A stretch of 64,000 bases of DNA from Methanosarcina barkeri 3 (GTDB lineage: Archaea > Halobacteriota > Methanosarcinia > Methanosarcinales > Methanosarcinaceae): contig NZ_CP009517.1 in the NCBI RefSeq assembly GCF_000970305.1, forward strand, positions 3,534,001-3,598,000, written 5' to 3'. Of this stretch, positions 1,432-61,525 are shown piece after piece (position 1 is the first letter of the stretch; each line of letters begins with the position of its first letter). Below the pieces are notes generated by a model. The model saw only the letters and a program-made list of their open reading frames with translations. It did not search any database and had not been told where the DNA came from. The translations under genes and the position numbers were made by a program.

Positions 1432-2862
1432 TCATCGTATTCCTTCCACACACTCTTCTTTTCCCTTTCCGGCATGTACTGTCGGTTCTGCCTGTACCGG
1501 TGCGGTGAAAGTATCGGTAGCTTCCAGAATTGCATTAGTGATTCTGTCCAGGAATTCCATAGCTCCCCTATATCCTACAGTAAGAATGCGCTGTGCACCG
1601 ACTCTGTCATGTATTGGCAAGCCGACCCTTACAAGAGGGATGTTCCGGGCTTTTGCAATGTATCTCCCGTTGGAATTTCCTATCAGGATTTCAGGATTAC
1701 ATTGGCTGACTGCATCGTTAAGAGTGTCAAAATCAATTCCGTTCAAAACCACAGGTTCAAATTCAGGGTTTATTTTTTCAACTATTTGCCTGACTTTTGC
1801 TTCAAAATCCCTGCTTTTACTTCCTGTAGCTACCAAAACCGGGTTCATCCCGAGTTCCAGCATGAAAGTTGTGAGGCTGAATACAAAATCAGGGTCTCCA
1901 TAAATCGCAGCTTTTACCCCGTACAGGTACTTGTGCACATCAACCATAGCATCAAGGAGCCTGCCTCTTTCTTGCAGGTATTTTACAGGAATCGGACAGC
2001 CTAGAATTTTGACCAGCTCAGTGAAGAAACTGTCAGTATTTGAAAGCCCAATTGGGATTGGAACGCTATACCCGGGCACATCGTGTGATTCTTCAAGATA
2101 GTTAACTGCTAAGTTCTTACTAACTGTACCCAGGCCCAGGCTTGCCTGACTGTTTGGCATGTCGGCAATTTCGAAAAGTGGGGTACCACCCTGCGCAATT
2201 TTCGGCAGATCTTCCCTCAGCGGAGCATCAAAGGTTTCGGAAATATCAGGCAGGAAAATATAATCTCCGGCCATAAGCTCAAAGACCTCTTTGAGTTCAC
2301 GTACATCAGCAGGAGAGAGGCTCTCAACAGGGATGACGTTAAGTTTTTCATTCGGGACTTTTTCAGCGCTCTCGTCTCCAGTTTTTTCCGCAAATGTCCT
2401 GACAATTGCATCCAGGGCCTTTATATATCCGCTTACATGGCTTTCCCCATAGCTGGGAGTGGAAACCGGAACAATTATAATATCTTTCTCAAGGTCATCT
2501 CCGATTCCTTCCTCTTCTTTGAACTCACGGATTATTGCAGGCACATCGTCCCCAATTGTTTCGGCAAGGCAGGTCGTAGCAACTCCGATTACTTTCGGGT
2601 TGTACCTGTTAATTACATTTCTCAGTCCTTTTTTCAGGTTTTCCCTGCCTCCGTATACTGCTCCTTTTTCACTGAGCGAGCTTGATGCAATATCCACAGG
2701 TTCCCTGAAGTGGTGGGCAAGATGCAGACGCATATAGGTGCTGCAGCCCTGAGAACCGTGGTAAAGAACCATAGTATTCTCGATTCCCTTAAATGCAAGG
2801 GCACTTCCCATAGGCTGGCACATAACACAGGGGTTCACAGTTGCATAGTTTCTTTTCGTCAT
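1432..2862 (-). CDS. nifN: nitrogenase cofactor-assembly scaffold protein NifN
   Basis: NifN pairs with NifE in the scaffold on which the iron-molybdenum cofactor is finished before transfer to NifD. The 476-residue product is a NifK-like member of the nitrogenase component 1 family. Visible features are an N-terminal CVMCQPMGSALAF segment with Cys12 and Cys15, GSQGCSTYMRLHLAHHFREP around Cys40, and the TTCLAETIGDD motif near residue 98. It lies 12 bases downstream of nifE and is last in the operon. A GAGGAGG ribosome site precedes the ATG by 8 bases. Position after a clear nifE, and divergence from nifK at 4560-5930, support NifN rather than a second NifK. Confidence 0.93.
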   Translation of the reverse strand: MTKRNYATVNPCVMCQPMGSALAFKGIENTMVLYHGSQGCSTYMRLHLAHHFREPVDIASSSLSEKGAVYGGRENLKKGLRNVINRYNPKVIGVATTCLAETIGDDVPAIIREFKEEEGIGDDLEKDIIIVPVSTPSYGESHVSGYIKALDAIVRTFAEKTGDESAEKVPNEKLNVIPVESLSPADVRELKEVFELMAGDYIFLPDISETFDAPLREDLPKIAQGGTPLFEIADMPNSQASLGLGTVSKNLAVNYLEESHDVPGYSVPIPIGLSNTDSFFTELVKILGCPIPVKYLQERGRLLDAMVDVHKYLYGVKAAIYGDPDFVFSLTTFMLELGMNPVLVATGSKSRDFEAKVRQIVEKINPEFEPVVLNGIDFDTLNDAVSQCNPEILIGNSNGRYIAKARNIPLVRVGLPIHDRVGAQRILTVGYRGAMEFLDRITNAILEATDTFTAPVQAEPTVHAGKGKEECVEGIR

Positions 2863-2874
2863 CTCAATGCCTCC

Positions 2875-4479
2875 TCACACCTGACTTTCAACTGCAGTTT
2901 CGGATTTCTGGTGCAAAAATTTAGGTTTCAGGAGTATACCTTTACATTCAGTTGCATGATTTTCTTCGGAAATCATTTCTTTTACTGTCGCTTTTTCCAT
3001 TCTGCCTGATTTCTTCTCTGATCCTGCTGCTACTGCCGCTTTTTCGATCTTACCTGATTTATTCTCCGATTCCACTGCTTCGGGTATCAGGGTCCGCTGC
3101 CTGACAGCTTTCCAGACAGGGCTGCTAATGGAAGCATCCACCTCCTGCACAAAGTTTACAAAGCCATCAAAACCTTCGAACTCCACCACCCTGTCGTGGT
3201 TGAAGTCACAGAAAGCAATGCCAAGCTTGTATGCAATGAATCTCTCCTTTACGCCTGCAACCATCAGGTCTGCTTTCTGTTTCACAAGCAGTTCGGCAAG
3301 TTCAAGGGGATTTGCATCATCAACAATAACCGTTCCATCCCTTACCGAATAACTGATCTGCTCGTAATCTTCTTTTTTCCCGGTCTGGGTCCCGATAATA
3401 ACGACTTCCATGCCAAGTTCAGCAAAGCCTTTGATAAGCGTGAGAGCTTTTGCAGGTCCTCCCATGTAAATAGCAGCCCTCTTTCCTTTGACCCTTTCTC
3501 GAACCCTGGAGATCTCAGGCATTATACGGTTTATTTCGGTTTCCAGGATTTGTTCTGCCTGCTGTTTCATCTTCTCGGAGCCAAAGTAATCCGCAGTTTT
3601 CCGTAGGGCCAGGGAAATATCTTCAATTCCGAAGAAACTCGCATTTAAGTAGGGAATTCCATATTCCATTTGCATCCATTTTGCAAGATAGGTCATGGAC
3701 CCACTGCACTGGACGAGGTTAAGGTCAGCTTCTGCTGCTCTGGATATGGCTTCTGCGGTTGAGTCACCTGTCATTGAGACTATGACCTCAATTCCCATCT
3801 TTTCAAAGAGAGGCTTTATAAGCCAGACATCTCCGGCCACATTGAAATCCCCTAAAATGTTAATCTTCGGCTTTATGGTTTCAGAGGACCTGGGTGCTTT
3901 TTTCGCAGTTGGATCTTCCGGAGGTTTTTTAATCAGCTTTTTTAAAGCATCACAGGCAGCCTTGTATCCATCGGACTTGTTGCCTTTGAAACCTTCGGAT
4001 TTTACAGGGATTACAGGAATGTTGTGCTTCTGGCTTGCAGTTTTGCATACGGACTCAAGGTCGTCACCTATAATTCCGACAATGCACGTGGAATATACAA
4101 AAACAACAGGAGGATGGTAGAGTCCAACCAGTTCGTCGATTGCGCTTGAGAGTTTCTTCTCTCCTCCAAAGACCACATCGAGTTCTTTCATATCCGTACT
4201 GAAACTGGTACGATTTGTTTCAATCCCACTGGATTTTGCACCTCTTATGTCCCAGGTATAGCCTGCACAGCCAATTGGACCGTGGACGAGGTGGATGGCA
4301 TCGGTTACAGGATTTAAGACAACCCTGGCCCCCGAATAAACACAGGCTCGCTGGCTGATAGCTCCTGCAAGAGAGTTATTATCGCAGGCAAGAGGAATTT
4401 CCTGCTCTTTTTCCTGTTTTCTGGTAATATATGGCTTCCTTTCTTCTAGAGTATCCACTATTCCAATTTTCTCTTTCAT
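2875..4479 (-). CDS. nifE: nitrogenase cofactor-assembly scaffold protein NifE
   Basis: NifE forms the NifEN scaffold with the next gene's product. It is NifD-like and has cysteines at about 46 (RACVYSGAR), 71 (HGPIGCAGYTWD) and 132 (YSTCIVGIIGDD). It has VFGGEKKLSSAIDEL, shared with NifD. A GTG nine bases further upstream is also in frame, but GAGGGGAG is better spaced for the ATG at 4479, so I use that (534 residues). The protein is longer than typical NifE. After about residue 455 it has a low-complexity tail with an internal repeat, KSGKIEKAAV then KSGRMEKATV. The tail has no known role. Confidence 0.93.
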   Translation of the reverse strand: MKEKIGIVDTLEERKPYITRKQEKEQEIPLACDNNSLAGAISQRACVYSGARVVLNPVTDAIHLVHGPIGCAGYTWDIRGAKSSGIETNRTSFSTDMKELDVVFGGEKKLSSAIDELVGLYHPPVVFVYSTCIVGIIGDDLESVCKTASQKHNIPVIPVKSEGFKGNKSDGYKAACDALKKLIKKPPEDPTAKKAPRSSETIKPKINILGDFNVAGDVWLIKPLFEKMGIEVIVSMTGDSTAEAISRAAEADLNLVQCSGSMTYLAKWMQMEYGIPYLNASFFGIEDISLALRKTADYFGSEKMKQQAEQILETEINRIMPEISRVRERVKGKRAAIYMGGPAKALTLIKGFAELGMEVVIIGTQTGKKEDYEQISYSVRDGTVIVDDANPLELAELLVKQKADLMVAGVKERFIAYKLGIAFCDFNHDRVVEFEGFDGFVNFVQEVDASISSPVWKAVRQRTLIPEAVESENKSGKIEKAAVAAGSEKKSGRMEKATVKEMISEENHATECKGILLKPKFLHQKSETAVESQV

Positions 4480-4559
4480 TTCCTTCACTCCCCTCTGCTA
4501 TTGTTTTCAGGTTTGCAGCGGCAGTTTACCAGTTATTCCGTAAATTTTTTAAAAAGGAT

Positions 4560-5930
4560 TTACTCGATGGTTTCAAGCAGCCAATCCGGAGCATCCCTAT
4601 CTTTCCTGTCAAGCAGGGTATTTCCTATACGCTCTACCAGTCTCGCAGCCCCTGCGTATCCCATAATAGGGAAGTAGTGCAGGTTTGCTCTGTCCATAAT
4701 CGGGAAGCCTACCCTGACAAGGGGAACATCCTCTGCCCTTGATATGAATTTCCCATAGGTATTGCCGATAAGAAGATCCACAGGCTTTCTCTTAATTATC
4801 TGATGAAGGGTAAACAGGTCTCCTCCGGAAATTACATCAGCCTCAGGGTACTCAGGACCTATGAGTTCTTCAACCTCTTTTTCAAATTCCGAATTCTGAG
4901 TTCCTGTAAGTACTACAGCAGGCTCCATACCCATTTCCATTATAAGACTGGTAAGACCTGTAAGGATATCCGGATCTCCGTAAACAGCTACCCTTTTTCC
5001 GTGGTAGTGCGGATGAGCATCAGTCATCATATCCACAAGCCTACCCCTCTCATCTTCAAGTTCGGGAGGAATGGCCACATTAGCAAGTTTTGCCGCATTC
5101 ATTATGAAACGATCGGTGTTCCGTATTCCAATAGGAACGGGCCCTATTTTTGCAGGGACTTTGTAGCGGCTTTCAAGGATTTTTGCAGCCGAGCCTCCTG
5201 CCATCCTGCAGAGAGCAATTGTCCCAACTGAGTTTGCGGAATCCTCTATGTCTCCTATCGGAGTCCCACCTTTCGGATACATCCCGGGATCTCCGGTAAG
5301 GGGAGCATCAAAGACATCTGTCGTATCTGGAAACACAATGCTGGAAATTCCCATTATTGAGAGTATGCGTTTCATTTCCCGTATGTCCCCAGGCTCCACA
5401 AAACCTGGGATGAGGTTTAATTTCCCGTTTGGCTTGCTCTTTTTGGCAAAAGTGGTTACAAAGGACTTTACCATATTATCATAGCCGGTAATATGGGTGC
5501 CCACGTAACTGGGGGTAGAAGCTGCACAGATCTTAATAGAAGGGTCTATGAGTTCTTGATCCTTTACATCTTCTAAGATAACCCCTACGTCGTCACCTAT
5601 TGTTTCGGCTACGCAGGTAGTGTGAATAGCAATTACTTCGGGTTTGTATATTTCAGTCAGGTTTACGAGAGCTTCCTTAAGGTTTGCAGCTCCTCCAAAG
5701 ACTGCAGTTCCTTCGGAAAAACTGCTGGTAGTTGCCAGGGCAGCTTCCCGGTAGTGCCTGCTTAAACACATACGCAGGTAAGAGAGGCATCCCTGGGACC
5801 CGTGACTGTGCGGCATGCAGTTGTGTACACCAAGAGCTGCATAGACTGCGCCTATTGGCTGACAGATTTTTGCAGGGTTAATGGTTACTGCTTCTCTGGT
5901 TACTTCTTCACATGGAGTATAGTCAAGCAT
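4560..5930 (-). CDS. nifK: nitrogenase molybdenum-iron protein beta chain NifK
   Basis: NifK is the beta subunit of the MoFe protein and supplies half of the P-cluster ligands. Counting from the ATG at 5930 (456 residues), cysteines at 23 (KICQPIGAVYAA), 48 (GSQGCLSYLRMC) and 106 (HTTCVAETIGDD) match the P-cluster ligand pattern. The protein is short at the N-terminus compared with proteobacterial NifK, as is usual for methanogens and clostridia. A GTG at 5939 is in frame, but that GTG sits inside the AGGTGA ribosome site for the ATG, so the ATG is preferred. It lies downstream of nifD with a 27-base gap and upstream of nifE. Confidence 0.95.
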   Translation of the reverse strand: MLDYTPCEEVTREAVTINPAKICQPIGAVYAALGVHNCMPHSHGSQGCLSYLRMCLSRHYREAALATTSSFSEGTAVFGGAANLKEALVNLTEIYKPEVIAIHTTCVAETIGDDVGVILEDVKDQELIDPSIKICAASTPSYVGTHITGYDNMVKSFVTTFAKKSKPNGKLNLIPGFVEPGDIREMKRILSIMGISSIVFPDTTDVFDAPLTGDPGMYPKGGTPIGDIEDSANSVGTIALCRMAGGSAAKILESRYKVPAKIGPVPIGIRNTDRFIMNAAKLANVAIPPELEDERGRLVDMMTDAHPHYHGKRVAVYGDPDILTGLTSLIMEMGMEPAVVLTGTQNSEFEKEVEELIGPEYPEADVISGGDLFTLHQIIKRKPVDLLIGNTYGKFISRAEDVPLVRVGFPIMDRANLHYFPIMGYAGAARLVERIGNTLLDRKDRDAPDWLLETIE

Positions 5931-5957
5931 TTTTATCACCTTTTACTTTTTTGTCTC

Positions 5958-28892: not shown

Positions 28893-29025
28893 ATGACGTA
28901 TTAGATTTAGCAGTAATTTTCGGTCAAGCCTTTTTTGAAAAGGCTTGTGATCACGCCGTCATGATGTTTTAGATTTAGCAGTAGTTTTCGCTCAAGCCTT
29001 TTTTTAAAAGGCTTGCGGTCAAGCA
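28890..29025. repeat. 68-bp direct duplication, each copy with a CAAGCCTTTT hairpin
   Basis: GTCATGAYGTWTTAGATTTA begins at 28890 and again at 28958. Each copy ends with a perfect hairpin, CAAGCCTTTT-TTG-AAAAGGCTTG (about 28924-28947) and its T-rich variant (28993-29016). The hairpins could act as terminators downstream of proS (29359) or as structured RNA. The rest of the gap, 29026-29358, is AT-rich without a gene. Confidence 0.75.
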
Positions 29026-34667: not shown

Positions 34668-35786
34668 TTAGTTCTTCAATATAATACCAACTGCAAGGAT
34701 ACACCCATTTGCTATAAACAGTTTTTCAAAACTCACAAAATCTACAAAAAACCCTGCAATAATCGGAGCAAGAGAAAGCCCTGCATATATAGTCGTATTG
34801 AAAAGCCCCATTGCAAGGCCTCTGTCAGCATTCATTCTGGCAACAGCGAGGGCAAAACCCACAGTTGCGACTCCTGACCCTCCACCAATACTTGAGAACC
34901 CCAGCAAGGGATATTTTATTGCAGAGAGAGCCCCAAAAGCTGAAAATCCCATTCCAATTTTAATTAAGTTTTTTTCCTTTACTTTGAAACGTCCTCCAAG
35001 CAGAGAGGTAATCATTGCACAGACATAAAGACTGGAAATCGAGATCCCAAGTTGGGCTTTTGTTATAGTACCCAGGCTGTAATCAGGATAGTAGGCTAGA
35101 AGCACTCCGATGGCTCCATTAAGCAGAAAAGAACTGAACCAAATCCCGAAATTGCTACGGCTGAGGAGCTTCTTAGTTTCTTTGTAAGGCTTTCGGAAAA
35201 GACCGGAACTTTTTAATGCACCTGCTTTCGCTGAGCTTTCAAGACCAACCAGGCCCCTGCATCTGGATAACAGGTAAGTGGTCAAAAGGAAAGTAAGAAC
35301 TGTAAAAATCAGGATTGCTCCTTTCAGATAGGCGTCTGCCAGCATCCCTGAGAGAAAAGCTCCTGTCGCCAGGCCAGCATTGAAAAGAAAAGTCAGCTCT
35401 CCTAAATAGCGCCCTGGATTACTGAGTTTGGATAATATGGCAAAAGCAGCCGGAAGAAAGGCTCCACAGGCAGAACCTTCTATAAACCTTGCAATCAAAA
35501 GAATCCAGAGGTTTTCGGAAAGCAGAATTGTCAACCCTGAAATTACCGTAAGGATAATACCCAGTGCTATGAACTTAAAATTGCCGAACCTGTCCGCAAG
35601 AATCCCAAAAGGTAGCATTGTTCCCAGGGCTCCGAGAAAGTAGGCGGAAAACAACAGGCTTAAGGCGAACCCTCCATAAGAATTATTACTCAGGTCTGCA
35701 AGCTCCGGAAGGATAGGAATGACAGCATTCGAGAGTCCCATTATGGTAAAAGCTGCTCCGTAAATCAAAAGCCTGTCAAGATTCAT
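34668..35786 (-). CDS. major facilitator superfamily transporter (paralogue of the adjacent gene)
   Basis: The 372-residue product has 12 predicted helices, motif A PFGILADRFGNFKFIALGI, and LYGLSNAV-type N-terminal sequence (YGAAFTIMGLSNAVIPILPELAD). Many identical stretches are shared with 33159-34316, including RFxEGxxCGAFxPAAF and MGLFNTxIYAGL. A tandem duplication is the likely origin. The central cytoplasmic loop is shorter and different, so the two proteins may differ in regulation or substrate. The substrate is unknown. Confidence 0.88.
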   Translation of the reverse strand: MNLDRLLIYGAAFTIMGLSNAVIPILPELADLSNNSYGGFALSLLFSAYFLGALGTMLPFGILADRFGNFKFIALGIILTVISGLTILLSENLWILLIARFIEGSACGAFLPAAFAILSKLSNPGRYLGELTFLFNAGLATGAFLSGMLADAYLKGAILIFTVLTFLLTTYLLSRCRGLVGLESSAKAGALKSSGLFRKPYKETKKLLSRSNFGIWFSSFLLNGAIGVLLAYYPDYSLGTITKAQLGISISSLYVCAMITSLLGGRFKVKEKNLIKIGMGFSAFGALSAIKYPLLGFSSIGGGSGVATVGFALAVARMNADRGLAMGLFNTTIYAGLSLAPIIAGFFVDFVSFEKLFIANGCILAVGIILKN

Positions 35787-36079
35787 AGGACTAAAAACCT
35801 TTAACCAGGTATATAGATTCTTGTCCGTAGTTTCCTGCCCTCAGCAGCTTTCGAAAAAAACACCGCTCACAGGTTAAAATGCCCTGAGACAATTTTTAAA
35901 GGTTCCTTCAACCCTTCACGGGATTTATATCCGTTGCATAGTTATAATGTATGTAAGAAAATCAAACATGGATGCTAAGCCTTAAGTTGACAATAGATCA
36001 TGACACTCTTATTATAATAAATGAGATAGAATGCATAGCTATTTATATAATTAGTTTGAATAGGGGTAATGTGAGTAAT

Positions 36080-36152
36080 GTGAGCGGGAAACTTTTTTCA
36101 CATACCATACCCCCCACTCCCCATATGACCCCCCACTCCCCAACCCGCTCAC
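36080..36152. other. C-rich inverted-repeat element
   Basis: GTGAGCGGG (36080-36088) pairs perfectly with CCCGCTCAC (36144-36152). The 55-base loop contains two copies of ACCCCCCACTCCCC, separated by ATATG. Such a G/C-rich island is conspicuous in an AT-rich gap (35787-36657) and may be a structured RNA or a mobile repeat. No family is recognised. Confidence 0.5.
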
Positions 36153-36270
36153 ACTACTTCTTCTTATCAATCTAATAGATGTCAATTGAATTTTTTTTCT
36201 TACTTTTTAGCTTATTAGTCCGTTATTTCTTTAGAATGATCAAAATCTTTTCTCATTTTTTAGCTTATTA

Positions 36271-36405
36271 GTTCACTACTTCTTAGTTCATTATTTCTTA
36301 GTTCATTATTTCTTAGTTCATTATTTCTTAGTTCATTATTTCTTAGTTCATTATTTCTTAGTCCACTACTTCTTAGTCCACTACTTCTTAGTTCATTACT
36401 TCTTT
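36271..36405. repeat. 15-bp tandem repeat (9 copies)
   Basis: GTTCATTATTTCTTA repeats every 15 bases from 36271. The variants GTYCACTACTTCTTA come first, seventh and eighth. No spacers are present. The array lies downstream of the pyrophosphatase gene, beyond its terminator hairpin. Confidence 0.95.
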
Positions 36406-36657: not shown

Positions 36658-39099
36658 TTAATCATTTGTCGGAATTCTCATTCTGTAGAATGAACGCCAG
36701 ACAAAGATCAGACCAACCAACAGGAATACGCCACCTACATAGGGAGCGATATTTCGGAAGGATTCGGAAATAGCGATTTCCATGGCTAACAGGCCAAATA
36801 GTGTGGTGAACTTGATGATTGGGTTGAGGGCAACTGATGAGGTATCTTTGAAAGGATCACCTACAGTATCGCCTACCACCGTGGCTTCATGTAAATCGGT
36901 ACCTTTCTCCTGAAGGTCTACTTCTACAACTTTTTTGGAATTATCCCAGCATCCGCCGGCATTTGCCATAAACACGGCCTGGAACAGTCCGAATACCGCA
37001 ATGGAAATTAGATAGGAGACAAAAAGCGCCACCGAATCATTTCCGGCTATTGGAGCAGAGAGACAGGAAAATGCCAGAGTAAAGGAGAATATAGTGATAA
37101 AAATATTGAACATACCCTGCTGTGCATACTGGGTGCAGATCTTTACCACTTCTTTTGACTTTTCCGTAGCTGCCTTCTGGTTGGCGTCTTCATCAAGCTG
37201 TATGTTCCTTTTAATATATTCAACTGCCCGATAGGCTCCTGTAGTCACGGATTGGGTCGATGCTCCGGTAAACCAGTAAATTACACAGCCTCCTGCTAAT
37301 AGTCCGAAGATGGTATAGGGGTTAAGCAGTGTCAGAATTTCTTCAGGTTGTACTCCAAGAACATCTCTAATAACAAGAACCAAAGAGAAGATCATCGTTG
37401 TGGCACCAACCACAGCTGTACCTATTAAGACCGGTTTGGCTGTAGCCTTAAAGGTATTTCCTGCTCCGTCATTTGCTTCCAGGTAATGTTTGGCTTTATC
37501 AAAATCCGGTTTGAAGTTAAATTCTCTCTGGATCTGCTCCTTAATTTTGGGAATTGTTTCTATAAGTGACAGCTCGTAAATTGACTGAGCGTTATCTGTT
37601 ACAGGTCCATAACTGTCAACTGCTATGGTAACAGGGCCCATGCCAAGCATCCCGAAAGCTACCAGTCCGAATGCGAATATGGAAGGATAAATCATTATGT
37701 CACTTAAACCATACCCGCTAGCATAGTAGGCAACGAACATAAGCAAGAAGAAGACCATACCGATCCAGAATGCACTGAAATTGCCTGCGACCAGTCCGGA
37801 AAGAATATTCAGAGACGGACCGCCTTCTCTGGAAGCTTTGACAACTTCGGCTACATGCTTGGAATTCGGGCTGGTAAAGATTTTGGTAAATTCGGGAATT
37901 AAAGCCGCTCCCAGGGTACCGCAGCTTATTATTATTGAGAGTACCAGCCAGAGGTTCTCCAGCGCGACAGGCACTCCGGAGCTAGGTCCCAAGATGTAAT
38001 AACTTACGGCAAAGGTTCCGATTATAGAAAAAATAGAGGTAATCCATATTAGACTGGTCAGTGGCTGTTCAAAATCAAAATCATCTTTGCTGCCGAATCT
38101 TGCCTGGCTGAGTGCCCTATTGATATAGAAAGAGGCTACGGAAGTAATGATCATGAGTATACGCATGACAAAGATCCAGGTAAGTAGGATGCCTGTCAGG
38201 TCGGGCTGTACAGCCAGAACTATGAAAGAGACAAGGGCGACTCCGGTTACACCATAAGTTTCAAATCCATCTGCAGTTGGTCCTACGCTGTCACCTGCAT
38301 TATCTCCAGTACAGTCAGCAATAACACCTGGATTACGAGGGTCATCTTCCTTTATACCAAAAACGATTTTCATCAGGTCGGAGCCGATATCTGCGATCTT
38401 GGTAAATATTCCGCCTGCAATACGTAAAGCGCTGGCTCCCAGAGACTCTCCTATTGCAAAGCCTATAAAGCTTGAACCGGCCAATTCTCTAGGAACAAAC
38501 AGCAGTATAATTAACATCATTATCAGCTCAACACAGACCAGAAGCACGCCTATGCTCATCCCTGCATCAAGAGCGATATTTAATAGTTTAAGAGGTTTTT
38601 TCTCCAGAGAAACAAATGCTGTTCTGCTGTTGGCCAGAGTATTCATACGAATGCCATACCAGGCGACCGAGTAAGAACCCAGTATCCCTAAAACGGTCCA
38701 GGCCATGATAAGCAGTACTCCGCTCAGATGCATTTTCTGAAGGAAGCCAAAGTAAAAGGCTATACATAAGCCGATGAAAACAAATAGTATGCACAGCAGT
38801 TTGCCCTGCTGGATAAGATAAGTTTTACAGGTCTCGTAAATTGTGTCGGCCACGTCCAGCATGGACTGATGGGCACCGATTTTTTTCACCTTCATAAACT
38901 GGTAAAGACCAAACAGCATGCCTAATACACAGACTACGATACCCCAGAGCAACAAATTATTTTGCTCCTGGCTTAAATTCGGAATTTTAAGATTCGCTTC
39001 ACTGGCAGCTGCTATTGCCGGTGTTAGCGACATTATGGTCAGGCCAATAAGGCTTTCTAGTGTTGCCTTGACCACCTTATTTTTGGTTATAATCTCCAT
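36658..39099 (-). CDS. hppA: membrane-bound ion-pumping inorganic pyrophosphatase
   Basis: The enzyme couples PPi hydrolysis to H+ (or Na+) transport across the membrane. The 813-residue product has about 16-17 helices. Its substrate-binding region is GIKEDDPRNPGVIADCTGDNAGDSVGP (about 248-274), with the usual Asp-rich and Lys residues, and a second acidic cluster (DNSKKVVEVD) lies near the C-terminus. The potassium-dependence position reads GNTFKATAK (Lys551). Lysine there is associated with K+-independent enzymes, whereas alanine marks K+-dependent ones. The N-terminus is long with a signal-like segment. The gene is monocistronic. Confidence 0.94.
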   Translation of the reverse strand: MEIITKNKVVKATLESLIGLTIMSLTPAIAAASEANLKIPNLSQEQNNLLLWGIVVCVLGMLFGLYQFMKVKKIGAHQSMLDVADTIYETCKTYLIQQGKLLCILFVFIGLCIAFYFGFLQKMHLSGVLLIMAWTVLGILGSYSVAWYGIRMNTLANSRTAFVSLEKKPLKLLNIALDAGMSIGVLLVCVELIMMLIILLFVPRELAGSSFIGFAIGESLGASALRIAGGIFTKIADIGSDLMKIVFGIKEDDPRNPGVIADCTGDNAGDSVGPTADGFETYGVTGVALVSFIVLAVQPDLTGILLTWIFVMRILMIITSVASFYINRALSQARFGSKDDFDFEQPLTSLIWITSIFSIIGTFAVSYYILGPSSGVPVALENLWLVLSIIISCGTLGAALIPEFTKIFTSPNSKHVAEVVKASREGGPSLNILSGLVAGNFSAFWIGMVFFLLMFVAYYASGYGLSDIMIYPSIFAFGLVAFGMLGMGPVTIAVDSYGPVTDNAQSIYELSLIETIPKIKEQIQREFNFKPDFDKAKHYLEANDGAGNTFKATAKPVLIGTAVVGATTMIFSLVLVIRDVLGVQPEEILTLLNPYTIFGLLAGGCVIYWFTGASTQSVTTGAYRAVEYIKRNIQLDEDANQKAATEKSKEVVKICTQYAQQGMFNIFITIFSFTLAFSCLSAPIAGNDSVALFVSYLISIAVFGLFQAVFMANAGGCWDNSKKVVEVDLQEKGTDLHEATVVGDTVGDPFKDTSSVALNPIIKFTTLFGLLAMEIAISESFRNIAPYVGGVFLLVGLIFVWRSFYRMRIPTND

Positions 39100-53349: not shown

Positions 53350-54759
53350 TTATTTCTTCGGAGGCCAGTTCTTTTCCATAAAGCCTGGGAGTCTTCCAGA
53401 GTCCATAGGACCAACAAGAACCTTTGCACCGAGTTTATCCTCAAGGTCACCCTGCAAACGAGCAGCAAGACCAGGAGTAATTACAGTATTGTGGTTAACA
53501 TCCGTCTTGAGGTCAAAGCCAGACTTCTCAAAAGCATCCTTTACTTTATCAGCAGTCAACTGGCCGCCGGCAACTGCAGCTTCAACACCGATACCATCGG
53601 TGTTAACTGCAAGCAGATAGCAGTTGATCCCGTTTGAAGAAAGGTCGCTCTCGACTGTATAGTAAGTCAAAGCGAAATTTGTCGTGAAAAGCACTGGAGA
53701 ATTCTCATCCGGAGTTCCTACCTTGTACATCTTGGAATCTACAGCAACAGGAGTTCTCGGGTCAGTATAGATAGTCTCGGCAAGGTGAACCTCAGGAAGA
53801 GTAGCATAGGGCTCAAGGCTGTGCAGAATCATAACATCGCCGTAACGGATAGTAAACACAGCAGCCATTGCGGTTTCCCAGTATGAAGCGCTCACAGGAT
53901 CGGAAATACCGGACATCCAGGCAGTAAACGGAAGAGCAAGAATAGGATAGGCAATCTCGGTGTCTCCCATAATGCCTGCTCTCCTGATCTTAAGGAAGTT
54001 GGTAAAGCTGTCCTTCATACCCTTCCCGCTTGGATAAGTTCCAGGGTCAAGAACAATATTCTTAATACCTGCATCTGAAAAGGTCTTTGTAAGACTCTTC
54101 AATGTGTCAAGGTCATTAATAGCGGAAACAACTACAGGAACATTGTATTCAAGAGCAAGCTCACCTACTTCCTTCCAGTTATCCTTATTTGCAGCGTAGA
54201 GCAGAGGGTTGGCATCCTTTGCAGCTTCAAGGCCGGCTTTAAGAACAGCAGGATTGAAGGAACAGAAGATCATAGGGATGCCAACTTCGGAAACTTTCTT
54301 GACAGCAGCGGAAAACTTAGCAGGGTCATTGGAGACGGACCTGATAGCTACACCGTCAATAAGCAGATTGCGACCGACATAGAACTTCTTGAAGTTAGCA
54401 ATGCTCTTTACCCTATCAACAAGGGCAGCATCTTCCATTGTGTCCGTCACATCAAAGAACATCTTAGTTTTGTTGAAGAAGGTCAGTTTATGACGGTAAA
54501 GAACATCGTCACCACCAATCTTGACTGCTCTATCGCCAACACCTATCACAACTTCACGAATCTCAGGAGCAAGAAGCCTGTCAAGTTCTGCGAGTTTCTT
54601 TGCAAACTTCTTCTCCTTAATAAGAGGCAGGCAGTCTGTTGTCTTCCCGGACCTATCAATCAGTTTGGAAGCAAAAGCCATACAGGTTGCTTCACCACAT
54701 TCTCCACAGTTGGTCTGCGGCAGGTACTTGTAAGCTTCTAATGGGCTGTTTATCTTCAT
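53350..54759 (-). CDS. cdhE: CODH/ACS corrinoid iron-sulfur protein, gamma (large) subunit
   Basis: CdhE carries a [4Fe-4S] cluster and, with CdhD, the corrinoid that passes methyl groups between tetrahydrosarcinapterin and the acetyl-CoA synthase. The 469-residue product has cluster cysteines 18, 21, 26 and 43 (NCGECGEATCMAFASKL, then TDC). A TIM-barrel methyltransferase-like domain follows (VVVSAINDLDTLKSL, IVLDPGTYPSGKG), then a C-terminal corrinoid-binding domain (GLAARLQGDLEDKLGAKVLVGP). It starts three bases after the cdhD stop and ends just before a clear terminator. It is last in the operon. Confidence 0.97.
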   Translation of the reverse strand: MKINSPLEAYKYLPQTNCGECGEATCMAFASKLIDRSGKTTDCLPLIKEKKFAKKLAELDRLLAPEIREVVIGVGDRAVKIGGDDVLYRHKLTFFNKTKMFFDVTDTMEDAALVDRVKSIANFKKFYVGRNLLIDGVAIRSVSNDPAKFSAAVKKVSEVGIPMIFCSFNPAVLKAGLEAAKDANPLLYAANKDNWKEVGELALEYNVPVVVSAINDLDTLKSLTKTFSDAGIKNIVLDPGTYPSGKGMKDSFTNFLKIRRAGIMGDTEIAYPILALPFTAWMSGISDPVSASYWETAMAAVFTIRYGDVMILHSLEPYATLPEVHLAETIYTDPRTPVAVDSKMYKVGTPDENSPVLFTTNFALTYYTVESDLSSNGINCYLLAVNTDGIGVEAAVAGGQLTADKVKDAFEKSGFDLKTDVNHNTVITPGLAARLQGDLEDKLGAKVLVGPMDSGRLPGFMEKNWPPKK

Positions 54760-54762
54760 GTT

Positions 54763-56091
54763 TTACACCTCCGCTCCGATCCAGTTACTAATGTCAACAG
54801 GCTCTGCCTCAATGGAACCAAACAGGGTCTGAGTGATGTGTTTCAGGACAGCAACAGAAGTCGGGTGCATCATCATAAAGAGGTCGTTTCCTGCAATAGC
54901 AAGGGAAAGACCTGTAATGATTTCCCAGATAGGACCTCTGTACTCTCTCGGACCCCAGTCAGAGTCCTCCTTCAAAGGAGAGCTAACCATCCAGGACTCA
55001 CGGGCACCCCAGGCGTTGGTAGTACCTGAGGACATCGGGAAAGTAAGTTCCTCGTCACCCATAAGAGCTGCAAGACGGATACGCTCCATGTTGGTGTAGG
55101 CATAATCAAGACCATAACCGAGTGCGGCAGTGGTCGGGTCCATGATGATCCGGTCTCTTGGAACGTTGCACTGCTTCATGAGTTTCCTGTTAAGTTCCTT
55201 CTGGGCATTCATATCCAGCTGGGTCCAGGAAAGGATATCGTGGTCGTACTTTACTGCAGCTTCTGCAATCTTGGCATAGTCAAGGTTCAGGCTGGCAGAT
55301 GCAATAAGGCAGCGTTCGCCTTCGGCAACTTCGGCAGCTTTAGCAAGAACCTCAGGATCTTTCTGCGGGTTACCGGACCCACCGATTGCAATTGGCACAT
55401 CAACAGCCTGAAGGACTTCTTCTACAGTCTTAGCTGCATCTTTGGGTGAGGTGTCCTTGATAAGAGGGTCGGTTGAAATAAGGTGAATAGTAATCATGTC
55501 AGCGTTGAATTTCTCAACGTTCTTCTTTGCCCATTCACCAGGGTTGTCCATTACATCGTCGTAGTTCTCCTTGACAGCTTTTGCAAGACCGAGTCTCATG
55601 TCGAAAACGTCAATGGTAACCTGGTTCCTGTTGGGCATGGGAGCGTCAGGGAAGAAAGGAAGGGCTTTCTCGCCACCGAGCAACACTCTCTTGCCACGGC
55701 TTCCGCCGTCTGCAGAGGTGTTGCCGATTGGAACTTCCTGAATCTGGTTTGTCCATTCGGCAATGTTCGCAACATCGAACTTGGCAGGAATGAGATCCTT
55801 AAATTTAGGAGCTGCAAGAGCAGGGGAAATTCCAGGAGCAGCGCCAGGAGCACCAGCAACAGGGGCACCAATGCCGACAGGGACGCCAAACATGTTAGCA
55901 AGCCGTGCAAAGTGCTGGGCAAGTATTGCATTCTCCTGACCGAGAAGAGCAGCAAGCATCGGGTCAAAGCCGCCTCCGAGGCCACTAAGATCAAGCTCAA
56001 TGTCACCTTCAATGGTCACACCTTCAAGGGACAGTATTTCCATATCCTTGAACATGTCTGTCATTTCTGATAACTTAACTTTCTTTGCCAT
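54763..56091 (-). CDS. cdhD: CODH/ACS corrinoid iron-sulfur protein, delta (small) subunit
   Basis: CdhD pairs with CdhE in the corrinoid protein and binds the pterin methyl donor. The 442-residue product has an N-terminal archaeal-specific region with a Gly/Ala/Pro-rich linker ([17 protein letters not shown]). A TIM-barrel part follows, with [41 protein letters not shown] and [25 protein letters not shown]. It lies 227 bases downstream of the cooC gene with a purine-rich leader, and is followed within three bases by cdhE. Confidence 0.97.
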
Positions 56092-56318
56092 GTAAACCTC
56101 ACCTTTTACGTAAGTTTTCCGTTTTGAGGAGTGAATAGATAAATAAAGAAATTACAGAATTTACTTCCGGATTCTTCCTTAGAGGAAAGAAAAATGGGGC
56201 AGAAGTAAACTCTGCTCCGTTATTTCACATTATTTTGAATAAATTTCAAGCCCGGAAAACGGGCAAAGGAATCTTTATCTCTTTCCTTGTGTTCTGCAAC
56301 GTTCAAAAGAAAACGGGA

Positions 56319-57080
56319 TTAGAATCCCAGTTCTTTTACAATACTTTCAATTTCAATTGCAGCAACCGAGTCATCCGAGATTTCAAAGAGAGGTATACCT
56401 TTTATATCCATTTCCTCGATTTTAGGGTCGAGAGGAATCATACCTATCATATTGAGTTTAAGATCCTCTGCCAGTTTGACAAGCTTTTCGCGGTTAGCAT
56501 CCGTAACCTTGTTTGCAATAACGTGAATTTTACCAACGTTTGAGTCAAGCTCATCAACAAGTTCATGAATTCTTTCAGCAGTCCTGAATCCCCTGCGAGA
56601 AGCATCTGTTACGACAATAAGGTCATCGATATCACGGATAATCTTCCGGCTGAAATGCTCAAGACCGGCCTCTGCATCAATGATAACCACATCATAATTC
56701 ACGATCAGTTTATCCATGATGCCCCTGAGGAGGTTGTTTACATAACAGTAACAACCTGAACCTTCGGGACGGCCCATGACCAGCAGGTCGTATCCGGGCA
56801 TTTCCTCGATGATCTCATAAACCTTGCTTTTGAGTACGGACTCTTTATTCATATCGGGGTTGTCAGGCCTTGGTTTGGTGATCTCAGCCTGTAAATACTC
56901 CTTTGCATCCCCGATTGTTTTTACGTCCTCACAGCCAAGGGTTTCAGGCAGGTTAGTGTCTGCATCAGCATCAACTGCAAGCAGAAACTTACCCTTTTTG
57001 GAAAGGGAGCGGATCAGAAGAGCCGCTACCGCTGTTTTACCAGTCCCACCTTTTCCCGTTATTGCAATTACTTTTGTCAC
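56319..57080 (-). CDS. cooC: CooC-type nickel-insertion ATPase for CODH
   Basis: CooC is a MinD/NifH-like ATPase that helps insert nickel into carbon monoxide dehydrogenase. The product (about 253 residues) has the deviant P-loop GKGGTGKTAVAALLIRSL. It also has AVDADADTNLPETLG, the conserved GSGCYCYVNNLLRGIM with the Cys-x-Cys pair that binds metal in CooC proteins, VVIIDAEAGLEHFSRKI (Walker B) and VVTDASRRGFRTAE. An ATG at 57092 is in frame, but GGGGT is placed for the GTG at 57080. Its position inside the cdh operon, between cdhC and cdhD, supports a maturation role. Confidence 0.92.
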   Translation of the reverse strand: MTKVIAITGKGGTGKTAVAALLIRSLSKKGKFLLAVDADADTNLPETLGCEDVKTIGDAKEYLQAEITKPRPDNPDMNKESVLKSKVYEIIEEMPGYDLLVMGRPEGSGCYCYVNNLLRGIMDKLIVNYDVVIIDAEAGLEHFSRKIIRDIDDLIVVTDASRRGFRTAERIHELVDELDSNVGKIHVIANKVTDANREKLVKLAEDLKLNMIGMIPLDPKIEEMDIKGIPLFEISDDSVAAIEIESIVKELGF

Positions 57081-57140
57081 AGAATACCCCATTGGATTGT
57101 TTTTCGTTGCAGACGATTAAGTATCGTCACCAAACTGCGT

Positions 57141-58559
57141 TTATTCCTTCTTCTCGCTGATGACCATTCTGTCGATGGAGATCTTTGCATTCTTGAAGGT
57201 GATCTTTATTCCACCGGCTTTACCAGCAGGCATCATTGGCATTGAAGCCATTGCAGGCATCTGGAACCCAGCTGCAGGCATCATCATCGGAGCGGCTGCA
57301 ACAGCTGTTTCTTCGGCTTCTTCCTCTTCTTCCTCTTCTTCCTCTTCTTCTGCAGCTGCCCAGGTAGCAACAACAGGGTGGTTCTTCTCCTGCAGGAAAG
57401 CCTTCAGGGACTCAATGTCAGTTGCATCGTTCTCAGTTGCAATCTTATCTTTGAGGTCTTCAGGAATGGTGTCGGCAATCTTTTCCTTGAGCATGGCAGG
57501 GAGCCAGACAACTCTGTTCCAGCCGCCGTCAGCCTGGATGAACTTGGGGGAATAGAAGTAGGCAACACCGATACCCAGGAAACCTACTATCTGTTTTCCG
57601 CCGCCTGTCTGGCCAGCCATGGTTGAGAAACCAATACCATTAGGAGCCATTCCCTGGTATTCTCTGTTAACCCAGCCAATACCGTCAACTTCAGGGATGT
57701 AGAACCCGACTACTTCGAAGCAGCCACAGGAAGTGTGTGGGGAGTCAAAGAAGGAGTGGAGTTTGATTTTGCTGAATTCGCCACTGGAAAGCTTTACAGC
57801 AATGTCGTTGACACCGGAGTACTCACCTGTATTGGCATCAAGAAGGTCACCCTTTGCAATTGCGAACTGTGGGCCTTCTGGGTCTACTTTTGCTGCTGCA
57901 CGGCCGTCGAACCAGTTAATTGCACCACAGAGGGAAACTCTGTCAGGGGAAACTACACAGACGTTGGTCGGAGCAAAGGACTGGCAGAGGGTACATCCGT
58001 AGAAGACATCGACATCCTCATCGCGGAGATCCTTTGTCCTGGCGTCTCTTGCCTTGAAGATCTCTTTTGCTTCTGCCAGCTGTTTCTCAACTTCGGCCTG
58101 GTCGGTGTAGAAGGTCACCTGCATCTTCTCGATAAAGGGAAGTTCGGTCTTGAAGAGCATCATGACAGCCTGCCCGAAGGGCTTGAAGGAGTCCATCTTT
58201 GCAGCTGTATCCTTGGAAACTCTCATCCAGACGTCGTACCTCTGGTTCAGGTGCATAATGCCCTGGCAGTAGTTTATGAAGTCGTGGACACGTCTTTCGA
58301 CGACAGACTCAAGGTCAGGCTCTACAAGTTCTCCGCCGATGTTGAAGATCATTGCCCAGGGATAGGTTTTGCCCTCTTCCATATCTTTGAGATCGGGACC
58401 AATAATTGTAACCTTGTCATCTTCAATCTCGTCCATGGCCTTTGCACGGACAAGCTCGAGACCAAGGGACTTTGGGCCGCCGAGTTCAACAAACATTCCT
58501 TCCTTTCTTACTCTTTCTCCTTCAAACATTGGGGAAATCTCAAATGGGAATTCTGCCAT
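57141..58559 (-). CDS. cdhC: CODH/ACS beta subunit, acetyl-CoA synthase
   Basis: CdhC makes or cleaves acetyl-CoA at the nickel-containing A-cluster. The 472-residue archaeal form lacks the N-terminal CODH-binding domain of bacterial ACS. A-cluster cysteines are visible at 189, 192 and 201 (FYGCTLCQSFAPTNVCVV) and 278 and 280 (TSCGCF). A glutamate-rich tract of ten residues lies at about 408-417, just before a Met/Pro/Ala-rich linker (MMMPAAGFQMPAMASMPMMP) and the C-terminal GGIKITFKNAKISIDRMV. It lies between cdhB and cooC. Confidence 0.97.
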   Translation of the reverse strand: MAEFPFEISPMFEGERVRKEGMFVELGGPKSLGLELVRAKAMDEIEDDKVTIIGPDLKDMEEGKTYPWAMIFNIGGELVEPDLESVVERRVHDFINYCQGIMHLNQRYDVWMRVSKDTAAKMDSFKPFGQAVMMLFKTELPFIEKMQVTFYTDQAEVEKQLAEAKEIFKARDARTKDLRDEDVDVFYGCTLCQSFAPTNVCVVSPDRVSLCGAINWFDGRAAAKVDPEGPQFAIAKGDLLDANTGEYSGVNDIAVKLSSGEFSKIKLHSFFDSPHTSCGCFEVVGFYIPEVDGIGWVNREYQGMAPNGIGFSTMAGQTGGGKQIVGFLGIGVAYFYSPKFIQADGGWNRVVWLPAMLKEKIADTIPEDLKDKIATENDATDIESLKAFLQEKNHPVVATWAAAEEEEEEEEEEEAEETAVAAAPMMMPAAGFQMPAMASMPMMPAGKAGGIKITFKNAKISIDRMVISEKKE

Positions 58560-58583
58560 TATATTTTGCCTCCTAAATCCAAA

Positions 58584-59096
58584 TTATAATGCATTAATAA
58601 GTTCATCCAGGGCAGCATAGTGGTCTGCCTTACTCAGATTTCCGAAAGACATCGTCGCGTTCTGGATGTAATTTCTGTCAATTGCTATTGCTTTTACATC
58701 TGAAAAATTCTTTGTTCCGGACAATACTTGATTAATATAGTATTTTATATGCCCTAAAACAATGAGTGTGTCATAAGTTCCGTTACCATCAAGCCCTGGC
58801 CAGTTAGGGTCAGTTACATAAAAGCCGAGCTGGTGCAAATTGATATACTTGGCATCCACATCCTTGTCCACAAAGCCAGGCATTGAGCTGCCAGTTGCTG
58901 CAATAGGGATGTTTTTTGCTTTTGAGATCTTCACTGCCCTGTCAAGTAGTTCCGGGTCAAGGATTTTGGTCCCAACCACAAGAAGTGGCCTCTTTGCTTT
59001 TGAAATCAGTTTGGCTGCGATCTCGGGAGTTGTTGCTTTTGCAGTTGTTACTCCGTAACTGGTGAAGAGCTTGGTATTTTTGGTAGTGTCTACCAT
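58584..59096 (-). CDS. cdhB: CODH/ACS epsilon subunit
   Basis: CdhB binds CdhA in the alpha2-epsilon2 CODH component and may help electron transfer to flavin. The 170-residue product has a DHS-like fold: [43 protein letters not shown], and [21 protein letters not shown]. An ATG at 59114 is in frame inside the cdhA end, but AGGGGG lies before the ATG at 59096. That ATG is two bases after the cdhA stop, so I use it. It is tightly coupled to cdhA. Confidence 0.96.
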
Positions 59097-59098
59097 TT

Positions 59099-61525
59099 TC
59101 AGGCCCCCTTGCAAAGTCTCTTAAGGTTAGTTGGCTGTGCAGAGACATCGAACTTGATCTTCGGACCGGAGATGATCTTCCTCTTCTTCCAATCAATTTC
59201 CCAGCCGTGCTCTTTTTCGAGTCTCTTAAGGAGTTCTTCACGCTTGGCAAGCGGGAGGTCAGCCTCGTTTCTGACAAACTTCCACCAGTCTTCAGGTTCT
59301 ACACCGAGGTACTTTTTGGAAAGCTCCATCCAGTGAGTTAGCTTTATTGACCTGCCCATGCTGTTATCGGACGGACGGATGCAGGCTTTTGCCATCATCG
59401 GGATTGCTTCCTGCCAGGTTTCTGCAGTTGTCAGCAGGAATTCCGGCGCTGGTGGGATGTTCATCTCTGAGCCGTCTCTTGCATCATAGACTTTCCACTT
59501 GGACTCGTCATAATTCTTGGCGATCAGGGCTCTCCTGTATTTAGAACTGTGGGGGCCGAGCACTGCAGGGATACCATATATGTTACATCCAGTACCGATA
59601 GCAGCAGCCTTTTGCGAATATGCACCCCAGGCAAGTCCGCATGCACCCACACGGTTGAGAGTATAGTCTGCAACTTCTGCCAGGTTTCCTGCAAGGACTC
59701 TACCTGCGAAAATCCCGGCAACTTTTTCTGCGGCCCCACTGATGTGTGAATTGGACACACAGGAGCCAGTGTTAAGCAGTCCACCACCTGCGAATGTACC
59801 AGGATACTTTTCGTAGAGGGTCTTGCCTTCTTCATCCTTGTACATACCGATGTCCATTGCAGAACACCCGCTTACAGCCAGGAGGTAGTTTCTTTTCAGG
59901 AACTCTTCGGCAATTAGGTAGACATCTTTAGTACCAGCTGGATAGTTTGGACATCCGATGATAGCGATAATACCAGGAGTAGTTCCCATAACAAGGTTCA
60001 GGCCTTCTTTCCTGATTTCCGCATCACTTGCCTGTCCTCTGCCAGCTCTGACCCAACCTTTCTCTTCACCGATGGCCTTCTGTGCAGCCTTCTCCATTAC
60101 ACTCACGATTGGTATGTCCTTCTTACATACCTGTTCACAGCGGCGGCATCCAATACAGCGGTCGTGGAGAGCTTCAAGATATTCGTAGCTACCTTTGGAT
60201 GCATATTCCAGAGCTTCTGGAATTTCGAGCTCTTCTGGGCATGCAAGCAGGCATTCTCCACACTTGGCGCACTTGTCAATATATGACTTAAACTCCTCAT
60301 CAGTCGGAATTGCTGTTATGCCTTCTGCATCACGGATCGGAGCCATTACCTCAGCAAGCTTCGGGACAAGTTCTCCAAGTTTTTCATAGTCCAGCATTAC
60401 ACAACCAGGAATTGCTCCTGACTTTAATTCCTCAATTATTGAATCCACATCTGCATCTGTACGATCCGGTAGTCCCATCATGATTTTTTCATTGGACGCT
60501 ATCACAGGGATCTTGAGTTTCTGGGACTCGGATAAAACATCACCGCGGACGCACTGTTCGTCGACAACAATAACATCAGGCATTCCGGAGCGGATAACCT
60601 TCAGTTCTTTGGCCAGAGACCCTACGATCTTGGCGTATGGAGCTCTCCTGTCAGCTTCCTTGTACCTGGTCATATCGAATGCGGTACAGCAAAGGCCGGC
60701 AATTTCCATCTTATCGGTCAGGTTGTTGTCTTCCATGTAGTCCATAATATAGGTTACACCGGCAACGTTGTGTCCGATTGCAACAATAAGTGGCTTGGAC
60801 TTGTCAATAGACCCCATACCGATTTCAATGAGAGGGGCTTCAGGATCAGCTTTCGGGAAATCATATGCTGAAACCTGAGCGATATCAGAAACTTCCATAC
60901 CAACGTGGTCAAGACTACCGCTGAATAGGGCTTTTGAATCATAGTCAATTTCTGCGCTTTCCTGCCCTGCATGGATGGTTGCAAGGAGCTGGGTGAGCTC
61001 TTCTTCAACATACTCCATTGGGGCTCTGCATTCTCCAAGGGTCTTCGGGCTGTATCCCGTACAGATTGTGACGTTTGGAGTCAGAACATTAGATTCTCCT
61101 AGACTAATAGGATAGTCTTCACCAAAGACTTCTATTACATGTTCAAGCAGGTGACGACCGTGGGCAGCGTGACATGCAGTACCTGTAATTACACGGAGGA
61201 AGAATTCCCTTCCTGTTTGGCCTGCCATGTCAATACCACAGGCACCTCTCTTGTTTCCAGACAGGTCACATGGTCCATAAGTACAGTAGCAGCACTGATC
61301 ACACATGGGGGTCAAGACAGGCTCATAGCGGTTGAGCAGGAGGAAATTCCAATCATTTCTATAAGCTGCCATATTTGCCAGAGGGGTCGGACCCATCGGT
61401 CCTAGCTCTTTTTCCTCTTTTGCCTCTTTGGCAACCTCCTTTGCTGCCCCTACAATATTATTAATAGTGATCTGAACGGATTCCAGATCTTCGATAGAAA
61501 AACTCCCGGTAGTTAGTTTGCTCAT
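59099..61525 (-). CDS. cdhA: CODH/ACS alpha subunit, carbon monoxide dehydrogenase
   Basis: CdhA oxidises CO or reduces CO2 at the Ni-Fe C-cluster and channels CO to CdhC. The 808-residue product has N-terminal cluster-binding cysteines [23 protein letters not shown] (B/D clusters). Two ferredoxin-like motifs, [12 protein letters not shown] and [11 protein letters not shown] (E/F clusters, archaeal-specific), follow. C-cluster segments are [17 protein letters not shown] and [34 protein letters not shown]. The length matches archaeal CdhA. It is first in the cdh operon, behind a long leader. Confidence 0.98.

Follow-up and report, generated by a model that had tools for sequence, protein, structure and literature searches.

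According to the accessible text of reviews, regulation by small RNAs (sRNAs) in archaea is known from a handful of worked examples, and masking of the ribosome-binding site (RBS) is the mode of action reported, in the available parts of the sources, for three characterized sRNAs of Methanosarcina mazei. The gene of sRNA154 lies between MM3337 and MM3338 and has a potential NrpR operator (accessible part of PMC3177094). As described in the portion available of PMC3510493, sRNA162 is 191 nt long, is encoded between MM2441 and MM2442 and folds into three stem-loops, with reported homologues confined to two close relatives. For Methanolobus psychrophilus, the available sections of PMC5378194 present nine cold-induced, conserved sRNAs that are similar to each other. 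In the bacterial domain, LhrC exists in multiple copies and exposes UCCC motifs in loops or single-stranded stretches, the binding site of such UCCC sRNAs being G-rich and located upstream of the start codon, as is GGGAG in lapB (excerpted text of PMC4132741).

Judged from its sequence, a locus of Methanosarcina barkeri 3 looks like a stand-alone RNA gene of the plus strand, the product of which would form a stem-loop at positions 36080–36152 of the window, that is, of the whole 64,000-nucleotide stretch analysed here (contig NZ_CP009517.1, 3,534,001–3,598,000). The locus belongs to a genuine class-wide family of structured RNAs, which is multi-copy and probably has a regulatory function. It occupies the intergenic region between an MFS transporter gene (34668–35786, minus strand) and a H+-pyrophosphatase gene (36658–39099, minus strand), the latter assigned by Pfam (H_PPase). 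The two features from which the earlier note started, exact 9-nt arms and a duplicated motif between them, are both borne out: the arms are SEQ3 at 36080–36088 and SEQ4 at 36144–36152 (GTGAGCGGG and CCCGCTCAC, respectively), and ACCCCCCACTCCCCA starts at 36109 and again at 36128, with a spacing of 19 nt. Complementarity extends outwards, with weaker pairing from 36074 and to 36158, to a total of 15 nt at 93% (36074–36088 with 36144–36158). The arm pair GTGAGCGGG/CCCGCTCAC occurs a single time in the 4.56 Mb genome, and the hairpin is the sole 9-bp inverted repeat of the 64 kb window with at least six G/C in the arm (gap 3–60 nt). Dinucleotide shuffling of the 871-base intergenic region yields a comparable GC-rich repeat in 1 of 2,000 cases. 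By itself, the RNA folding of the element is only moderately unusual (z values of −2.41 for the plus strand and −1.35 for the minus strand).

All recognizable parts of the putative gene are arranged along the plus strand. A TATA box, TTTATATA, lies at 36042–36049 and is near-invariant in 25 aligned orthologues. Given the promoter spacing in Methanolobus, where promoter elements are located about 19–22 nt from the start in the accessible text of PMC5378194, transcription would begin at 36068–36072. The orientation of this promoter identifies the C-rich strand as the RNA. Both arms are defined by sequence and by covariation. The 5′ side of the loop carries a U-tract (36093–36098), followed by two copies of a C-rich motif, ACCCCCCACTCCCC, at 36109–36122 and 36128–36141, which are apparent in the sequence and in the orthologue alignment, the second copy adjoining the 3′ arm. 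A pyrimidine-rich tail with a T8 run (36191–36198), identified by direct reading, is presumed to represent the 3′ end and terminator zone (36153–36198), and the transcript would measure about 90–130 nt. Just downstream, at 36264–36404, a 15-bp unit, CTTCTTAGTTCATTA, is repeated in tandem about 9.4 times. The array has CACTACTTCTT in common with the 3′ arm and tail of the sRNA (36152–36162), and short tandem copies of the RNA's own tail are present in other genomes (L028, L039), so that the array may have grown from the sRNA 3′ end.

Conservation within Methanosarcina is extensive. A 481-base query around the element matches 33 of 39 genomes (own included), and CCCCCCACTCCCC is found in 27 of the 30 genomes of the genus, in at least two copies in 25 of these. 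In the alignment of 25 orthologues, from which L013 was left out because its contig ends inside the element, near-invariance extends from the TATA box GCATAGCTATTTATATAATTA via stem and loop to CTTCT, and the flanks outside this block are diverged and largely not alignable. At the level of sequence comparison, such conservation is strong evidence that the element is real. Two compensating versions of the outer stem, in which AGTAAT faces ACTACT or AAGAT faces ATCTT, can be recognized by eye. The loop measures 55 nt in 18 of the 25 orthologues and 54, 56 or 59 nt in the other seven. These lengths bear on the idea that the locus is a small mRNA encoding a peptide. A 67-aa open frame does cross the element in its own genome, but the offset from 55 nt is not a multiple of three in any of the seven orthologues and the frame starts upstream of the TATA box, which leaves a coding function hardly credible.

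The earlier note had suggested looking in relatives for similar arms with different loops, and such loci are indeed present. A covariance model was built from 24 sequences, own_d being left out of the seed since its shifted arms were misaligned by MAFFT. In the window's genome, this model recognizes four strong members (the window element, one at 24257 and two in tandem at 3260942 and 3261348), the next-best match having an E value of 0.9. Matches are found in 29 of 30 Methanosarcina genomes, with exactly four copies in 19 of the 30, and in 174 of the 185 genomes of the order at E ≤0.01, with 25 of 27 genera represented; among good-quality genomes of the order, 116 of 117 match. The eleven genomes of the order, out of 185, that show no match include all six of genus g16 and both of g18. 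Copy number rises in the Methanoperedens-type family f5 (1–13 copies per genome, 34 genomes) and, with laxer filters, reaches a maximum of 18 model matches in one of its genomes (G098), well beyond the four copies usual in Methanosarcina. Loci of other families share the same plan: a TATA-like box, a TGTGAGCGGG-type arm, the U-tract, a C-rich stretch ending mostly in CACTCCCCAA and a CCCGCTCAC-type arm.

Of 392 genomes drawn from the whole phylum, 97 contain a match at an E value of 0.001, and of these 73 belong to the order, 20 to family f6 of the same class and 4 to family f14. Two f14 members that were inspected keep the TATA-like stretch, arms and U-tract, with the core changed to AUCCCCUACC. 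A pattern scan of named genomes returned at least 120 stretches, and the 80 matches listed are all Methanosarcinales-type, Methanoperedens, ANME-2, Methanothrix/Methanosaeta-type or 'uncultured archaeon'. Viral contigs gave no match to a 22-base pattern, and plasmids gave no blastn match. The family occurs in archaea that produce or oxidize methane, and its structured RNA is kept in nearly all genomes of the order, mostly in several copies and with one strongly conserved core; to our knowledge, such a spread would be unusually broad for a candidate regulatory RNA of archaea.

Structural analysis was carried out on 109 members, obtained from 125 rows by removing 15 opposite-strand entries and one duplicate (L109 = L174). 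Three weak tandem members were retained in this set (L139:942, L064:110 and L068:21). These third members of tandem clusters (L139:942-1044(-), L064:110-209(-), L068:21-122(-)) keep the TATA-like box and GAGCGGA/TCCGCTC arms and are devoid of the typical core. In the model-based alignment of 105 members, standard pairs fill 94.4% of the base-pair cells, and for 8 of 10 stem pairs there is at least one sequence with both partners changed; these counts lean towards the model since the alignment is fitted to its structure. None of 500 shuffles reaches any of five covariation measures, and pairing falls to 31–53% when the partner columns are slid. Exchanged stems can also be read directly (GAGCGGG/CCCGCTC, GAGCAGG/CCTGCTC, GGGCAGG/CCTGCCC and GCGCGGG/CCCGCGC). 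Compensatory base-pair change therefore exceeds the controls, as expected of a conserved structured RNA.

The promoter is likewise a family trait. Among members having upstream sequence, a TATA-like 8-mer agreeing at 7–8 of 8 positions is present 26–50 nt upstream of the arm in 70 of 108, compared with 9 of 108 shuffles (one each). Downstream, there is no clear T enrichment across the family (0.39 then 0.38). These data bear on whether the locus acts as DNA, in the form of a G-quadruplex, an i-motif or a protein-binding palindrome without RNA product. The earlier note had drawn attention to a possible quadruplex on the opposite strand, and that strand of the window member does contain four G-runs and fits the motif. 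A conserved quadruplex function is not supported, however, as only 34 of the 109 members fit the motif and 75 do not. In addition, compensatory changes preserve the stem while its sequence shifts, and a TATA-like box precedes the arm in 99 of the 109 members with comparable spacing (median 34 nt). A purely DNA-level element is accordingly a very improbable explanation.

The stem encloses a loop of 29–85 nt (median 41, 109 members), in which a run of at least four U is located within the first 30 nt in 105 of the 109 members. The loop motif ACTCCC occurs in 93 of the 109, CACTCCCC in 76 and CCCCCACTCCCC in 69. The core could be located in 100 of the 109 members and is predicted to be unpaired with a mean probability of 0.96 (lowest 0.68, above 0.9 in 87%). 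Support for the small RNA gene, which the earlier note had offered as one possibility, comes from the conservation of the promoter and of a single-stranded loop, from compensation within the stem and from the class-wide spread of this multi-copy family.

What such an RNA binds is a separate matter. A protein-binding or sponge RNA, whose C-rich loop repeats and U-tract would titrate an RNA-binding protein (KH-type, Sm-like or other) in a CsrB-like manner, constitutes the main rival to RBS masking, even if we regard it as rather unlikely. The near-constant U-tract, the repetition of near-identical CCCCCAACUAUU-like C-rich units in some loops, the abundance of copies in certain genomes (up to 18) and the high conservation of the core, which suits a protein ligand equally well, are all compatible with titration. 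Nevertheless, a single CACTCCC-like motif is present in 63 of the 109 members, a poor design for a sponge, and no candidate protein gene accompanies the family. Neighbouring genes vary from locus to locus, and no recurring neighbour was found across the family loci, the largest clusters of related neighbour proteins comprising nine proteins each. One of these clusters is pyrophosphatase-like and holds the H_PPase gene of the window along with L140; another holds a protein that we take to be Rfc-large-like (L143). Varied neighbours together with stand-alone promoters fit a trans-acting RNA.

The core could alternatively contact rRNA or some other housekeeping RNA rather than mRNAs, making the family a structural or ribosome-associated non-coding RNA. 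Its near-universal presence in the order would agree with such a role, as would the resemblance of the core to what we take to be the 16S anti-Shine-Dalgarno sequence (CACCUCC). Two members of family f4 (L062, L063) also carry CACCTCC, presumably an exact anti-Shine-Dalgarno-like word, directly after the 3′ arm; two others of the same family (L059, L061) have CACCTCT there. Yet each genome contains several diverged paralogues with variable loops, and exact matches to the 9-mer GGGGAGTGG are scattered single sites, so that we consider a housekeeping role quite improbable.

A search of the own genome with GGGGAGTGG exposed a second scaffold near 691150 (L177, L380), referred to here as type II. 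Its arms differ (GTGGGCATCTGGG/CCGGATGCCCA) and it has a small extra hairpin, with the U-tract and CCCCCACTCCCC present; the covariance model scores it at an E value of 2.9 only. A similar type-II RNA is found in G011 (L041). Retention of the core in another structural context suggests that function resides in this part of the molecule. Repeats similar to those that adjoin the type-II sRNA are present in the window at 28925–29015, where CAAGCCTTTT/AAAAGGCTTG inverted repeats are themselves repeated.

Trans-acting control of translation, the reading we prefer, predicts that targets carry the complement of the core near their start codons. The core, 5′-CCACUCCCC-3′, is complementary to GGGGAGUGG. 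Besides the sRNA itself, the genome has 10 sites with the exact 9-mer, one of them being the type-II relative and another the Shine-Dalgarno position of a GPR1/FUN34/YaaH-family gene, where the sequence reads CGGGGAGTGGTATTA-ATG. The product of this gene is presumably involved in acetate transport in Methanosarcina. At its RBS, 10 of 11 orthologues have GGGGAGTG without mismatch and the eleventh has AGGGAGTG, and GGGGAGTG is absent from the 14 other YaaH-family paralogue leaders inspected (leaders were inspected for 25 of the 30 YaaH-family transporter loci retrieved). In the window, three consecutive nitrogenase component-1-type genes (Pfam PF00148), which we take to be nifK, nifE and nifN, occupy approximately 1432–5939 of the minus strand, and in the middle one GGGGAGTG precedes the start. 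This gene (approximately 2875–4479), taken to be nifE partly on account of gene order, has AGGGGAGTGAAGGAA ahead of its ATG; translation verified the nifE-like gene and its site in G001 and G006, and the string occurs in at least four more genomes. The YaaH-family and nifE-like sites are suggestive of targets. Other starts with the site in the own genome belong to a molybdopterin oxidoreductase, presumably FwdB-like, a 171-aa protein without Pfam match and a YHS-domain protein.

On a broader scale, strong predicted pairing with the core (≤ −14 kcal/mol) concerns 21 of 265 own-genome starts, sampled from 16 stretches of that genome and the window; this is not a significant enrichment, as 30 shuffled cores average 13.6 and the strongest-binding shuffle reaches 23. 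The arrangement GGGGAGTG-N3-9-ATG occurs 303 times in 30 genomes against 109 for reversed controls, but the antisense of the sRNA itself contributes about two matches per genome, and enrichment is to be expected of any Shine-Dalgarno-like word. Four of the nine own-genome matches beyond the sRNA were set aside: two (permease-like and 40-aa frames) because the conservation upstream resembles that of coding sequence, and two because the frames that they precede have only 5 and 11 aa. The window also contains an ACDS operon (approximately 53500–61500, minus strand; cdhA at 59123–61498), and a closely similar second operon lies near genome position 3906567. ACDS starts are not supported as targets of the window member, whose loop ranks them 28 to 200 of 265. 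With the type-II loop, one ACDS start (469-aa subunit, both operons) is predicted to rank 5 of 265, which can be taken only as a lead for the relative near 691150.

Taken together, we find it fairly probable, short of confident, that the element encodes a trans-acting sRNA with its own promoter, the core of which would pair with G-rich Shine-Dalgarno regions and control translation; RBS masking is plausible and is the mechanism we favour. The GC-rich stem would keep a large single-stranded loop open, displaying one or more C-rich cores, typically CCCCCACUCCCC, for pairing with GGGGAGUG-type G-rich Shine-Dalgarno regions of mRNAs. Such pairing would block translation or occasionally stabilize the message, and the U-tract might recruit an Sm-like protein. 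As the core is common to paralogues whose promoters, outer stems and loop lengths are not alike, several signals could feed a single target set via different paralogues. A more speculative extension, which we put forward tentatively, is that these molecules are class-wide mimics of the anti-Shine-Dalgarno sequence and put a common brake on translation in methanogens as well as in anaerobic methanotrophs. Paralogues driven by different promoters would then direct the same C-rich core, in competition with the 16S anti-Shine-Dalgarno, at a defined set of GGGGAGUG-leader mRNAs (candidates being those of the nifE-like gene, the YaaH-family acetate transporter and the FwdB-like molybdopterin oxidoreductase), with an expansion in Methanoperedens-type genomes. 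If true, C-rich, Shine-Dalgarno-directed control would be directly testable in both makers and consumers of methane.

The family appears to be missing from Rfam 15 as searched with the window and 10 family loci: the window scan gave no match to the element, and the 10 loci gave three tRNAs only, with two weak microRNA matches far below threshold. A description of the family was not found in the open-licence full-text literature searched, and its transcripts are probably contained within the transcriptome studies of M. mazei and Methanolobus. Within the same genus, sRNA41 is reported, in the available part of its description, to mask the ribosome-binding sites of ACDS genes; compared via these reported targets only, the window member, which may still correspond to sRNA41, differs in that ACDS starts are not among its best pairings. 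The likeness to sRNA154 lies in conservation within Methanosarcina and in loops that, in the accessible account, act on the RBS or on mRNA stability. Identity with sRNA154 is excluded, since the locus is another one (MFS transporter/H+-pyrophosphatase), the NrpR operator GGTA-N6-TACC is found in none of 25 orthologues (320 nt each) and two published sRNA154 primers, as given in the available text, do not match (best matches 16/23 and 15/21). Another intergenic sRNA reported to occlude ribosome-binding sites, sRNA162, is set apart by locus, length and spread as far as its published description is accessible. Similarly, the nine sRNAs presented in the available text for M. psychrophilus compare, by description, with 2–5 model matches per genome in the Methanolobus-containing genus g21. 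The Firmicutes UCCC sRNAs (LhrC1-5, RsaE, FsrA and SprD), likened here by description, share an exposed C-rich motif and, for LhrC, multiple copies, and the placement of this motif in an unpaired region is reproduced by prediction in the present family (mean 0.96, n = 100). Unlike them, however, the family belongs to another domain of life, is built on one stem with a 29–85 nt loop and is preceded by an archaeal promoter.
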